DNA of 64,000 bases, taken from assembly GCA_947494145.1 (NCBI GenBank), contig CANLTZ010000001.1:522551-586550 (forward strand). Direction: 5' to 3'. The position numbers were made by a program, and so were the translations under genes. Origin of the DNA: an uncultured Jannaschia sp. GTDB lineage: Bacteria > Pseudomonadota > Alphaproteobacteria > Rhodobacterales > Rhodobacteraceae. Positions 59,126 through 63,814 of this stretch are shown in pieces. Below the pieces are notes generated by a model. It was not told where the DNA came from. It saw only the letters and a program-made list of their open reading frames with translations, and did no database searches. The first letter of the stretch is position 1. Every line of letters begins with the position of its first letter.

Positions 59126-59806
59126 ATGTCCATCTTCTCGCGTTTGAAATCTGTCTTTGGTGGCGCGGCCGCCCCGCGCGCTGAACCAACTGCACAGGCG
59201 GCCACGAGCGCTGTGCCCAAGGTGAGCAAGCCCGTCGCGCCCCAGCCCACGCCCGCGACCGACCAGCGGTCTGTCCGACTCAACCGGCAAGTCGACAAGA
59301 TCGCACCCGGGATTGCCTGCGATGACTTTGACGGGTCCAGCAGCCTGATCACTGCGGTGCCCGATGATCTTGTCGTGCGCTATCGGTTGAAGCTTGTCGG
59401 CTGCAAAAAGCTGACGGACTTGCCAACGGGGCTGTCCGTGCCTTCCTTGGACTTATCCGGCTGCACTGCACTTCAGCGTCTGCCAAGCGGGATGAATGTG
59501 ACCTTTCTGACCTTAAGCGGCTGCCAAGCGATCCGTGAATTGCCGGAAGACCTTCGAATTGCGGGTGGCATCTTGAATCTAAGCCGGTGCACGGGGCTTA
59601 CGTCGCTGCCCGACAATCTGGGTGAGGTGGCCGGGCTGAACCTGAATGGGTGCAGCAACATCACGGGGCTGCCCGCCGGCCTGATCGTCACGTCCTGGAT
59701 TGATATCACGGGCACCAAGATCACAGAGATACCGGAGGCATATTCCGGTGTCGGGTTGCGGCGTGGAATTGACGTGATCAGCTCTGAAGAAGCGCTGGCA
59801 AGTTGA
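59126..59806 (+). CDS. Leucine-rich-repeat protein with ~20-residue repeats
   Basis: Repeats VPSLDLSGCTALQRLPSGMN / VTFLTLSGCQAIRELPEDLR / ILNLSRCTGLTSLPDNLG / VAGLNLNGCSNITGLPAGLI; start MSIFSRLKSVFGG. Confidence 0.8.
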   Translation: MSIFSRLKSVFGGAAAPRAEPTAQAATSAVPKVSKPVAPQPTPATDQRSVRLNRQVDKIAPGIACDDFDGSSSLITAVPDDLVVRYRLKLVGCKKLTDLPTGLSVPSLDLSGCTALQRLPSGMNVTFLTLSGCQAIRELPEDLRIAGGILNLSRCTGLTSLPDNLGEVAGLNLNGCSNITGLPAGLIVTSWIDITGTKITEIPEAYSGVGLRRGIDVISSEEALAS

Positions 59807-60659
59807 CATCTGCGGGCGCGCGACGTTCCAGAAAGCCGTCCCCGAACAGGGCGCGCAAGTTCAGATCCTTGAGGTGGGAATAGCCGATATGGCATCGACA
59901 GTAGGCGACCGAACAGGGGCGCGGTCTCAGGGCCTTTTCGAAGCCGGGGTCGTAGATGTTTCCGATTGGCGTCTTGATGAAATGGCAGCGGGTGGCGGTT
60001 CCGTCTGCTTCGACTGAAATGACCGTCTCCCCCGTAAAACAGGCGCGGTTTTTGCTGCGATGCGGCCGGTGGTTGAGCGTGAAGAGTGGGTCGACGGCAG
60101 TCAAACGTGCGATCTGCTCGCGGGTGTACCGGATGGCCCGGCCCGTCATTGCGTTGACCCAGAGATAGGCATTGGCGGGAAGCGCTTCTTTTAGGTGTTC
60201 GATTTCATCCAACCCGGCGGGGTCACCCACAACGCCGACGCTATAGCGGGCGCCAAGCGTTTCGAGTTCATGAATTTTCGCCACGAACTTCGCCCGTGTG
60301 ACTTCGGTGGGGTGGTAGCTTATCCAGAAGGCGGCTTTGTTCAGGTCGCAATCCCGCAACCATTTCGTATCGCAAGAGAAATTCGTCTGGATCGCAACCG
60401 TGGATATATGGGGTAGGTGGGACAGCTGCGCCATGGCCTTGCGGTAGTAGCCCCTGATCAGCGCCTCTCCCCAGGGGGTGAACAATATGGACATGTCTCT
60501 CGATTGTGCGGCGACCCAGTCGCGGAACTTTTCCAATGCAGCGCGGTCGCGGTCCAAGGCTGCTCGGCTGTCTTGTGTCTTGGCGAAGGGGCAGTACCCG
60601 CAGGCATAATTGCAGCTTGATAAGCTGCCACGCCATAGGATCGTGAGCGGCTCTGTCAT
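59778..60659 (-). CDS. Radical SAM protein, STM4011-like
   Basis: SLSSCNYACGYCPFAK (CxxxCxxC); TPWGEALIRGYYRKAM; C-terminal cysteines CHFIKTPIGNIYD...CSVAYCRCHIGYSHL. Confidence 0.85.
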   Translation of the reverse strand: MTEPLTILWRGSLSSCNYACGYCPFAKTQDSRAALDRDRAALEKFRDWVAAQSRDMSILFTPWGEALIRGYYRKAMAQLSHLPHISTVAIQTNFSCDTKWLRDCDLNKAAFWISYHPTEVTRAKFVAKIHELETLGARYSVGVVGDPAGLDEIEHLKEALPANAYLWVNAMTGRAIRYTREQIARLTAVDPLFTLNHRPHRSKNRACFTGETVISVEADGTATRCHFIKTPIGNIYDPGFEKALRPRPCSVAYCRCHIGYSHLKDLNLRALFGDGFLERRAPADVNLPALLQS

Positions 60660-61957: not shown

Positions 61958-62754
61958 CGCAGGGGGCCCTCCAAGATGACTTCGCCGTAAGGCACATCCC
62001 AGACAGTGGGGTGCCCGAGCCGGTGGCCTCGGTAGCCACCTTCGCCAAATGCGTCCCCATGATCAGAGCAGACAACCAGCAATGTCGGCCGTCTGATGGA
62101 TGCAAAGAGCGGGCCCAGTGCCCCATCGAGCGCTTCCAATGCTGCGGCTTGGCTGTCTGGCCCGTCGCGCCGCGCGCCATCAAGGTAGGCGCGATGCGGG
62201 ATGTGGCAGGCGGACAGGTTCATGAACAGGAAAACGGGACCTTGCGTGGCGGCGAGCCGTTCGCAGGCCTTCCCCACCTGATGCTCTTGCGAGCGGGCAT
62301 TCGTGACCCCCATGGCCGGGGACCACCAACTTTCCTCAAAAAGATCGGGCAGCGTCCTGCCAAGGGGGGTTTGCTTGTTGAAGAACCCCGTGCCGCCGAT
62401 GCAGATCGTGCGATAGCCTTCCTGCGCAAAGCCGGTGACGATGTCCGGCGCATCGAAGTCCAGCGTCATTGGGCCGGTGCTTTGGCTGCCTTTGAAGCGT
62501 GCCGCAAAGAGCCTGTCTTCACCGGAACCGCCTGGTGTGGCCGGCGTTGGAAGGAAGCCAGCAAAGAAGGCTTGATGCGCCGCGTAAGTAAAGCTGGCAG
62601 GACTGTGGCGTTGCTCCCATTTGCCCAAAACGCGGGCCAGAACCGGTGTCCGCCCGTCCGCCATCGCTTGCGCAGCCACGTCGTAGCGCAGACTGTCAAT
62701 TGTCAGAAAGAAGATGTCATGGCTGCCCAGGCAGGCGCTTGCGTCAAGCGGCAT
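61954..62754 (-). CDS. Alkaline phosphatase/sulfatase-fold hydrolase, STM4013-like
   Basis: DIFFLTIDSLRYDVAAQAMADGRTPVLARVL; SFTYAAHQAFFAGFLP; LVVCSDHGDAFGEGGYRGHRLGHPTVWDVPYGEVI; 4-nt overlap with previous gene. Confidence 0.82.
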   Translation of the reverse strand: MPLDASACLGSHDIFFLTIDSLRYDVAAQAMADGRTPVLARVLGKWEQRHSPASFTYAAHQAFFAGFLPTPATPGGSGEDRLFAARFKGSQSTGPMTLDFDAPDIVTGFAQEGYRTICIGGTGFFNKQTPLGRTLPDLFEESWWSPAMGVTNARSQEHQVGKACERLAATQGPVFLFMNLSACHIPHRAYLDGARRDGPDSQAAALEALDGALGPLFASIRRPTLLVVCSDHGDAFGEGGYRGHRLGHPTVWDVPYGEVILEGPLR

Positions 62755-63814
62755 CTGATTGCACTTTCATCATTTGCTGCACTTGCCAGTCCTGCGGTGT
62801 ACGCCCGCCGATGGTCATGCGCCGGATATGGTCACCGAACGCATTCACTTCAAATACAACATGATTGCGGAGATCGGCCGTGACCGCGATGTCGGGCGAC
62901 ACGGTCAAGCTGTCTGGAAAAGCGGCCTGAACGTTCCGTACCGTTTGCCAAAGCGCGTCAACGTTCTCTGGCGCCATCAAGGCGAACAGCGCGTCACTTG
63001 CGGCCCGCTCTGCGTCAAGGTGCAGGTTTGTAATCGGGCCGCGGCTAAGGCGCAGTATGGCAAAGGGCGGTGCATTGCGCGTTGCGACGATACGCAGATC
63101 ACAGGTGCGGCCCGCGATCCCTGCCTTGGGGATCCAACGCTCAACATGAAGCCCCATGGGACGTAGGAAATCAAAGATGCACTGCACATCTTCGGTGGTG
63201 TTGAGCTTTTGCACCCGCTTAACAAAGCGCGGACCGGATTTGTCCGGCATCAGGGTCGTATGTGCGATTACCTGGCCCCTGGGCCCGGACATCAGCGCCA
63301 TGGTGCCCGCGGCACCCGCCCCGAACCGTTGTTTAACGAACAATCGCTTTTCCTGGCGCAACAGCGTGAGCAATCCATCGAACGATTCCGGCGGGGAAAA
63401 GACCTGCGGCACGGGAACACCCCGAGCACTCAGATGGGCGGCGCAGGTGGTCTTGTCGTAGCAGAGCGCGATATCTTCCGGGGACGCCGTCAGATGGACA
63501 CCAGGCTGAACGGCGTCCTGCTGCAAGGCGCGAAGCCCGAAGGCAAGTTGGGCGGGGGCCATCAGCGCAGAGTTTGTGGTGGGATAGCCCCTCCGCTCCG
63601 CCTCGGCCCGGCCTGCATTAAGTACCGCGCCCATGGCCGCGACGTTTTCATCGGGAGATTCGAAGCGCAGCCAATCCCCCGGCCGCAAATCGACCGTCTC
63701 GCCATAGGCCAGCGGGATTAGATCGCACAATCCCGCACGATTGGCCGCTTCCCGGAAGGCATCGAACCGGCGCCCCGTGCCGGACCCCATCACAACAACC
63801 CGATTGGTGATCAC
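62744..63814 (-). CDS. ATP-grasp-like protein, STM4014-like (GTG start)
   Basis: 356 aa; CYDKTTCAAHLSARGVPVPQVFSPPESFDGLLTLLRQEKRLFVKQRFGAGAAGTMAL and FEVNAFGDHIRR; 11-nt overlap with STM4013-like gene. Confidence 0.72.
   Translation of the reverse strand: MITNRVVVMGSGTGRRFDAFREAANRAGLCDLIPLAYGETVDLRPGDWLRFESPDENVAAMGAVLNAGRAEAERRGYPTTNSALMAPAQLAFGLRALQQDAVQPGVHLTASPEDIALCYDKTTCAAHLSARGVPVPQVFSPPESFDGLLTLLRQEKRLFVKQRFGAGAAGTMALMSGPRGQVIAHTTLMPDKSGPRFVKRVQKLNTTEDVQCIFDFLRPMGLHVERWIPKAGIAGRTCDLRIVATRNAPPFAILRLSRGPITNLHLDAERAASDALFALMAPENVDALWQTVRNVQAAFPDSLTVSPDIAVTADLRNHVVFEVNAFGDHIRRMTIGGRTPQDWQVQQMMKVQSDAA

Follow-up and report, generated by a model that had tools for sequence, protein, structure and literature searches.

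An STM4011-STM4014 enzyme cassette in an uncultured Jannaschia and the C-terminal glutamate of its partner STM4015 as a candidate site of modification

ATP-grasp ligases are known to build on the ends of proteins. LysX and ArgX act on the C-terminal glutamate of the carrier LysW, linking its gamma-carboxyl to an amino acid (PMC10433800, PMC9303977), and RimK lengthens the C-terminus of RpsF (PMC10092738). Pearlin and graspetide pathways likewise build or cross-link on a ribosomally made scaffold, with tailoring by radical S-adenosylmethionine (SAM) enzymes (PMC9303977, PMC8939145). Here, we describe a cassette that recalls these systems and lies at one end of a 64,000-nucleotide stretch (the window) of contig CANLTZ010000001.1 from an uncultured Jannaschia sp. 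Its genes belong to the families STM4011 to STM4014 which, with STM4015, are already known by name as a set without assigned function; functional studies on STM4011-15, DUF6745 or the structure 2ra8 were not found in the open-access literature. The reading that we favour, with confidence about evenly balanced against doubt, is that the cassette would supply the enzymes for a protein-tethered modification pathway, with STM4015 as substrate or carrier, the ligase STM4014 loading its glutamate and the other enzymes remodelling what is attached. This proposal is drawn from sequence comparison and structural modelling.

The four genes lie on the minus strand, with STM4011 at 59778-60659, STM4012 at 60656-61957, STM4013 at 61954-62754 and STM4014 at 62744-63814, and overlap by 4, 4 and 11 nucleotides. 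A first-pass annotation, made from the DNA letters, had described exactly this layout and given the family names, which hidden Markov model searches of NCBIfam bear out. Indeed, the four proteins are true members of their families, with scores of 377 bits for STM4011 (NF038073, cut-off 200), 546 bits for STM4012 (NF006067, cut-off 380), 347 bits for STM4013 (NF038075, STM4013/SEN3800, cut-off 250) and 240 bits for STM4014 (NF038074, cut-off 175).

Two independent lines of evidence indicate the same residue, the C-terminal glutamate of STM4015. The first is the tail of STM4015 itself, a ribonuclease-inhibitor-like leucine-rich repeat (LRR) protein of ~300 residues that is the fifth cassette gene across phyla. 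We collected 123 STM4015 sequences from cassette loci, of which 122 are intact (the exception, from L091, is an out-of-register frame). Every intact copy ends in glutamate (122/122), as do all 36 cluster representatives (4.32 bits, the highest possible value). Conservation covers the final seven positions, with the consensus R-Y-[VIT]-A-V-[GAS]-E-COOH, which come after an acidic linker that varies. Among the enzymes, STM4014 and STM4011 show no conservation at the C-terminus (0.5-1.5 bits per position), and STM4013 and STM4012 show it in part (1.4-3.2 bits), with no fixed last residue. Whole-genome searches recovered further STM4015 copies that mostly keep this tail (HRYSAVGE, YRYAAIRE, YRYTSIAE, YRYTTIAE, ARYVAVGE and YRYVAVSE), with the glutamate end present in six that are encoded away from a standard cassette or had escaped its definition. 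STM4015 is present once at 73 loci, twice at 22 and six times at one, and the enzymes are almost always encoded once each. The locus with six copies, in Actinomadura rifamycini (L032:2-5759), carries them in tandem, with divergent bodies and the glutamate tail common to all. Myxobacterial STM4015 proteins (L171:8313-9668, L182:13163-14551) begin with a WGR domain, and a TIGR02996 repeat-companion domain also precedes their LRR region. A Bacteroides homologue of STM4015 has a structural-genomics structure, 2ra8, with 28% identity to the protein modelled from locus L083.

The second line is the fold of STM4014. Its AlphaFold2 model (mean predicted local distance difference test score, pLDDT, 92.9) has an ATP-grasp fold, in agreement with the ATP-grasp-like region noticed in the first-pass annotation, and K121, K161, D239, R241, D308, E322 and N324 are invariant among relatives. 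A profile search of the PDB places LysX/ArgX best (1e-5). Searched with Foldseek, the model finds first the LysX-LysW complex 5k2m (1.2e-12), then ArgX-LysW (3vpb) and RimK-RpsF (5zk6); D-Ala ligases and graspetide synthetases, among them PsnB, CdnC and MdnC, come next. The best matches by profile and fold are at 17% identity, with other ATP-grasp proteins not far behind. The nearest structural relatives of STM4014 are thus ligases that act on a C-terminal glutamate or extend a C-terminus.

Compared with the LysW/LysX and ArgW/ArgX carrier pathways, the cassette shares the fold class of the ligase, the presence of additional enzymes encoded alongside and a partner protein that combines an acidic stretch with an invariant C-terminal glutamate. 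However, LysW is small, binds zinc and ends in EDWGE (PMC10433800), whereas STM4015, an LRR protein of ~300 residues that sometimes has a WGR domain, ends in RYVAV[GAS]E. We therefore do not place the cassette in the LysW/LysX class. Tailoring differs as well, with a kinase, a reductase and an aminotransferase in the LysW pathway versus radical SAM proteins and an enzyme of phosphodiesterase fold here. RimK is likewise an ATP-grasp enzyme and extends a protein C-terminus with glutamate, but its substrate is a ribosomal protein (S6) and it has no radical SAM or hydrolase partners of the cassette's kind.

The remaining enzymes are of a modification type. The CxxxCxxC motifs that the first-pass annotation saw in the first two genes (C16/C20/C23 in STM4011, C53/C57/C60 in STM4012) are invariant among relatives. 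STM4011 has five more invariant cysteines (C207, C225, C249, C254 and C256) in a SPASM-like auxiliary cluster region that matches SkfB (6efn). STM4012 is HemN-like, its PDB matches including HemN (1olt, 1.7e-31) and the methyltransferase NocN (9p2u, 1.8e-22). STM4013 bears out the metal motifs of the alkaline phosphatase superfamily that had been reported for the third gene: it matches Pfam Sulfatase (PF00884, 33.3 bits, cut-off 25), and D20, T56, D231, H232, H244 and H248, metal residues included, are invariant among relatives, T56 being the probable nucleophile. Housekeeping roles, raised at the time as alternatives, fall away. STM4012 stays far below the equivalog cut-offs for HemN, HemW and HutW (158.7 bits versus 325 for TIGR00538, 149.6 versus 205.4 for TIGR00539 and 147.9 versus 400 for TIGR04107). 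As for phosphoethanolamine transfer, STM4013 matches its own NCBIfam family, its best solved structures are nucleotide pyrophosphatase/phosphodiesterases (profile match 2gsn, 4.5e-6) and phosphoethanolamine transferase is matched weakly. A PADLOC search for defence genes returned just a weak partial match, to the radical SAM region of STM4012.

The cassette is conserved well beyond this genome, as the first-pass annotation had supposed. The order STM4015-4014-4013-4012-4011, tight and on one strand, recurs on plasmids and in genomes across many phyla. Carriers include Salmonella, Streptomyces, Deinococcus, Planctomycetota and about a third of the sampled Myxococcota (STM4011 in 61 of 195 genomes). 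Among 101 genomes of relatives, it exceeds the cut-offs in one, the window's own, and owing to this rarity the cassette was probably acquired. STM4015 and STM4014 behave as a unit. The pair lies apart from STM4013-4011 in Verrucomicrobium, Planctomycetota and Myxococcota, and on another contig in genomes G1028 and G1030; it stays together whether STM4013-4011 are divergent, convergent or on other contigs. Variation in the enzyme set also occurs. On a Bacteroides plasmid (L011), STM4011 carries a fused HAD-type phosphatase domain (11965-13530), and STM4013 and STM4012 are reduced to fragments between STM4014 and STM4011. In Salmonella, a Cof-type HAD gene lies directly 3' of STM4011. We considered a HAD phosphatase as a core part of the cassette and rejected it, as it was found in Salmonella, Deinococcus taeanensis and Bacteroides (as the STM4011 fusion) and not elsewhere.

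In the Jannaschia genome, STM4015 is present as two pieces on two contigs. The C-terminal remnant (63811-63923, minus strand) ends in ...PDVWNGRASHYIAVSE-stop, and its stop codon overlaps the GTG start of STM4014 (GTGA). It is followed by the right end of an IS3-type insertion sequence (63924-64000), inside which both the window and the contig stop. The N-terminal part (~272 codons) lies at the end of another contig of the same genome (C5), before an IS3-family-like orfA and the matching end of the element. A 3-bp target duplication, AGG, flanks the element (63921-63923 and the C5 side), and joining the flanks of both contigs gives a 308-residue STM4015 frame that scores 313 bits over positions 4-309 of the 309-position profile. 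With this remnant, the locus fits the common gene order. Because the gene halves are complementary and AGG is duplicated, we take the two contig ends as neighbours across the gap, STM4015 being split by the element in this strain and the enzyme genes intact. The terminal repeat of the element, TGAACCGCGCCGGGTTTGCCGGAGGCT, occurs 24 times in the assembly, at contig ends in nearly all cases, and this accounts for the end of the window at 64000. The element, in about a dozen copies, is behind much of the fragmentation of this assembly. As the contig ends inside the gene, STM4015 had been overlooked in the first-pass annotation.

That annotation had suggested a modification or peptide/natural-product pathway, possibly with a small precursor ORF nearby. 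The modification-type enzyme set with its ATP-grasp ligase agrees with the former; the small precursor did not materialize. An all-against-all comparison of 738 open reading frames (ORFs) of 18-85 residues, located within 700 bp of the cassette at diverse loci, revealed no cross-phylum family; it gave a dozen matches, mostly between near relatives and in several cases antisense to known genes. The cassette loci thus differ from those of a classical short-precursor ribosomally synthesized and post-translationally modified peptide (RiPP), and the likely substrate is the 300-residue STM4015. Of the features of pearlin and graspetide pathways, neither a small precursor nor PEARL, a peptidase or a transporter is conserved at STM4015 cassettes.

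If STM4015 is the substrate, STM4014 would first activate its C-terminal glutamate as an acyl phosphate and join it to an amine-bearing building block or, less likely, form an internal linkage within the tail. STM4011, STM4012 and STM4013 would then modify what has been attached, or nearby residues of the tail. The product may be retained on the LRR protein or released and, in several lineages, could serve a MoxR-vWA ternary system, a predicted conflict system. A number of observations weigh against this scheme. The conserved C-terminus of STM4015 could instead be a docking motif, and two weaker, distant STM4015-like paralogues located away from the enzymes end in aspartate (G500:C43, and G1000 at 10.9 Mb). 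STM4014 has no Pfam match, and in Foldseek the LysX/RimK set is only modestly apart from D-Ala ligases and graspetide synthetases (1e-12 versus 3e-10). The cassette has no conserved peptidase or other enzyme for release. Finally, the sampled loci are mostly actinobacterial, and no ternary system was seen there as a recurrent neighbour.

The surroundings of the cassette extend beyond the coordinates of the first-pass annotation, which held the four genes and left out the end of STM4015, a convergent LRR gene and a MoxR-vWA type operon, and which also missed the link to ternary systems. The LRR gene (59126-59806, plus strand) overlaps STM4011 by 29 nucleotides. Its product is 40-43% identical to DUF6745 proteins across their LRR part and has no DUF6745 domain. 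Convergence of such a gene with STM4011 is also seen in Deinococcus (L006/L008), Anaerolineae (L015), Phycisphaeraceae (L016) and Sphingomonadales (L013), and DUF6745 with a ~98-residue partner stands beside most cassettes. This partner carries TGHSHR, HEEH and QREY motifs. In a clustering of neighbouring ORFs, recurrent neighbours outside the core were limited to these two; the other clusters were mostly Streptomyces synteny, spurious high-GC frames and a generic ABC-type ATPase group.

The MoxR-vWA type operon (52767-59000, minus strand) adjoins the cassette. Its bpMoxR ATPase (57813-59000; PF20030, 249.7 bits, cut-off 27) has 57% identity to the cassette-side MoxR of a Sphingomonadales metagenome-assembled genome (MAG; L013). 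An unassigned 129-residue ORF without Pfam match (57424-57813) separates it from a putative vWA/beta-propeller component (55646-57427), also without Pfam match and assigned solely through similarity to its equivalent in L013 (31% identity over 279 residues). The putative third component (52767-55655) has 27% identity over 555 residues to L013 and a match to bpX6 (PF19922, 2.4e-4) that is below the cut-off. MoxR-vWA ternary systems, of beta-propeller and FtsH types, were described as predicted conflict systems by Kaur et al. 2020 (PMC7159879). That paper predicts radical SAM peptide modification for VMAP- and FtsH-type systems and gives beta-propeller systems as lacking conventional effectors; its main text makes no mention of STM40xx, ATP-grasp, WGR or LRR proteins. 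The radical SAM genes in these predictions may partly be STM40xx genes.

The association with ternary systems is recurrent. Such a system adjoins the cassette in L013 and also in a Phycisphaeraceae MAG (L016), where bpX0, bpX1 and bpX2 are clear. Of the myxobacterial genomes searched, 26, with sizes of about 9-13 Mb, have a bpMoxR-type ATPase <=30 kb from the cassette; they come from species that are related and hence not independent. In a Myxococcus locus (L171), an FtsH ternary system (FtsH, fvmX7, MoxR and vWA) is followed directly by STM4015-STM4014, all on one strand. Nevertheless, there is a substantial chance, somewhat short of even, that the cassette is independent of these systems and that adjacency reflects a clustering of unrelated accessory or defence genes. 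Cassettes of Actinobacteria, Deinococcus and Salmonella have no such neighbour in the regions seen, and bpMoxR is distant or on another contig in most Planctomycetota and in Corallococcus. Since the linkage is not seen in Corallococcus, most Planctomycetota, Actinobacteria and Salmonella, the cassette is a separable module. Against full independence stand the adjacency in three distant lineages with differing arrangements (the window, L013 and L016), the short distances in the large myxobacterial genomes and the L171 pair immediately behind a vWA gene on the same strand. Independence would concern the genomic context only and is compatible with STM4015 acting as a carrier. A bolder proposal, tentative and on balance rather unlikely, is that STM4015 represents a new type of carrier protein (LRR, sometimes WGR-LRR) on whose C-terminal glutamate the LysX-like ligase, both radical SAM proteins and the phosphodiesterase-fold protein build a group, and that its charged form acts in MoxR-vWA ternary conflict systems as their effector or sensor.

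Alternatively, the tail of STM4015 may be recognized non-covalently, for instance in docking to a partner protein, with the enzymes making a free small molecule and STM4015 serving as scaffold or sensor. Short linear C-terminal motifs commonly serve as docking signals, LRR and WGR domains bind ligands, and the DUF6745 neighbours likewise have a conserved C-terminus. The latter reads YxPxx[EQ]T-COOH (L005, L007, L083 and most cassette loci). However, we regard this explanation as unlikely, as it accounts neither for the LysX/RimK likeness of a gene always paired with STM4015 nor for a terminal glutamate without exception among intact cassette copies. Improbable, too, to a slightly stronger degree, is a RiPP scheme in which STM4014 is a graspetide-type macrocyclase that links side chains in the STM4015 tail (e.g., Glu to Ser, Thr or Lys) with radical SAM cross-links added and the LRR as leader: PsnB, CdnC and MdnC among its structural matches, the SkfB-like region of STM4011, a C-terminal core and a multi-copy precursor speak for it, but the tail has no conserved Thr, Ser or Lys acceptor (G, A or S predominate at position -2), LysX/ArgX lead by profile and fold, side-chain lactones do not need a glutamate fixed at the very end, and no protease or transporter is conserved.

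To conclude, the points that appear to be new are the invariant terminal glutamate of STM4015, which is the probable substrate, the assignment of STM4014 as a LysX/RimK-like protein, the repeated occurrence of the cassette beside ternary systems and the probable interruption of STM4015 by an insertion sequence in this strain; priority for the idea of STM4015 as a substrate is not certain. A defined residue, the C-terminal glutamate of STM4015, and a candidate first enzyme, STM4014, give a testable role to a widespread cassette that had no assigned function. If the proposal is true, it would extend carrier-protein chemistry to LRR proteins and would offer a candidate effector for beta-propeller ternary systems.

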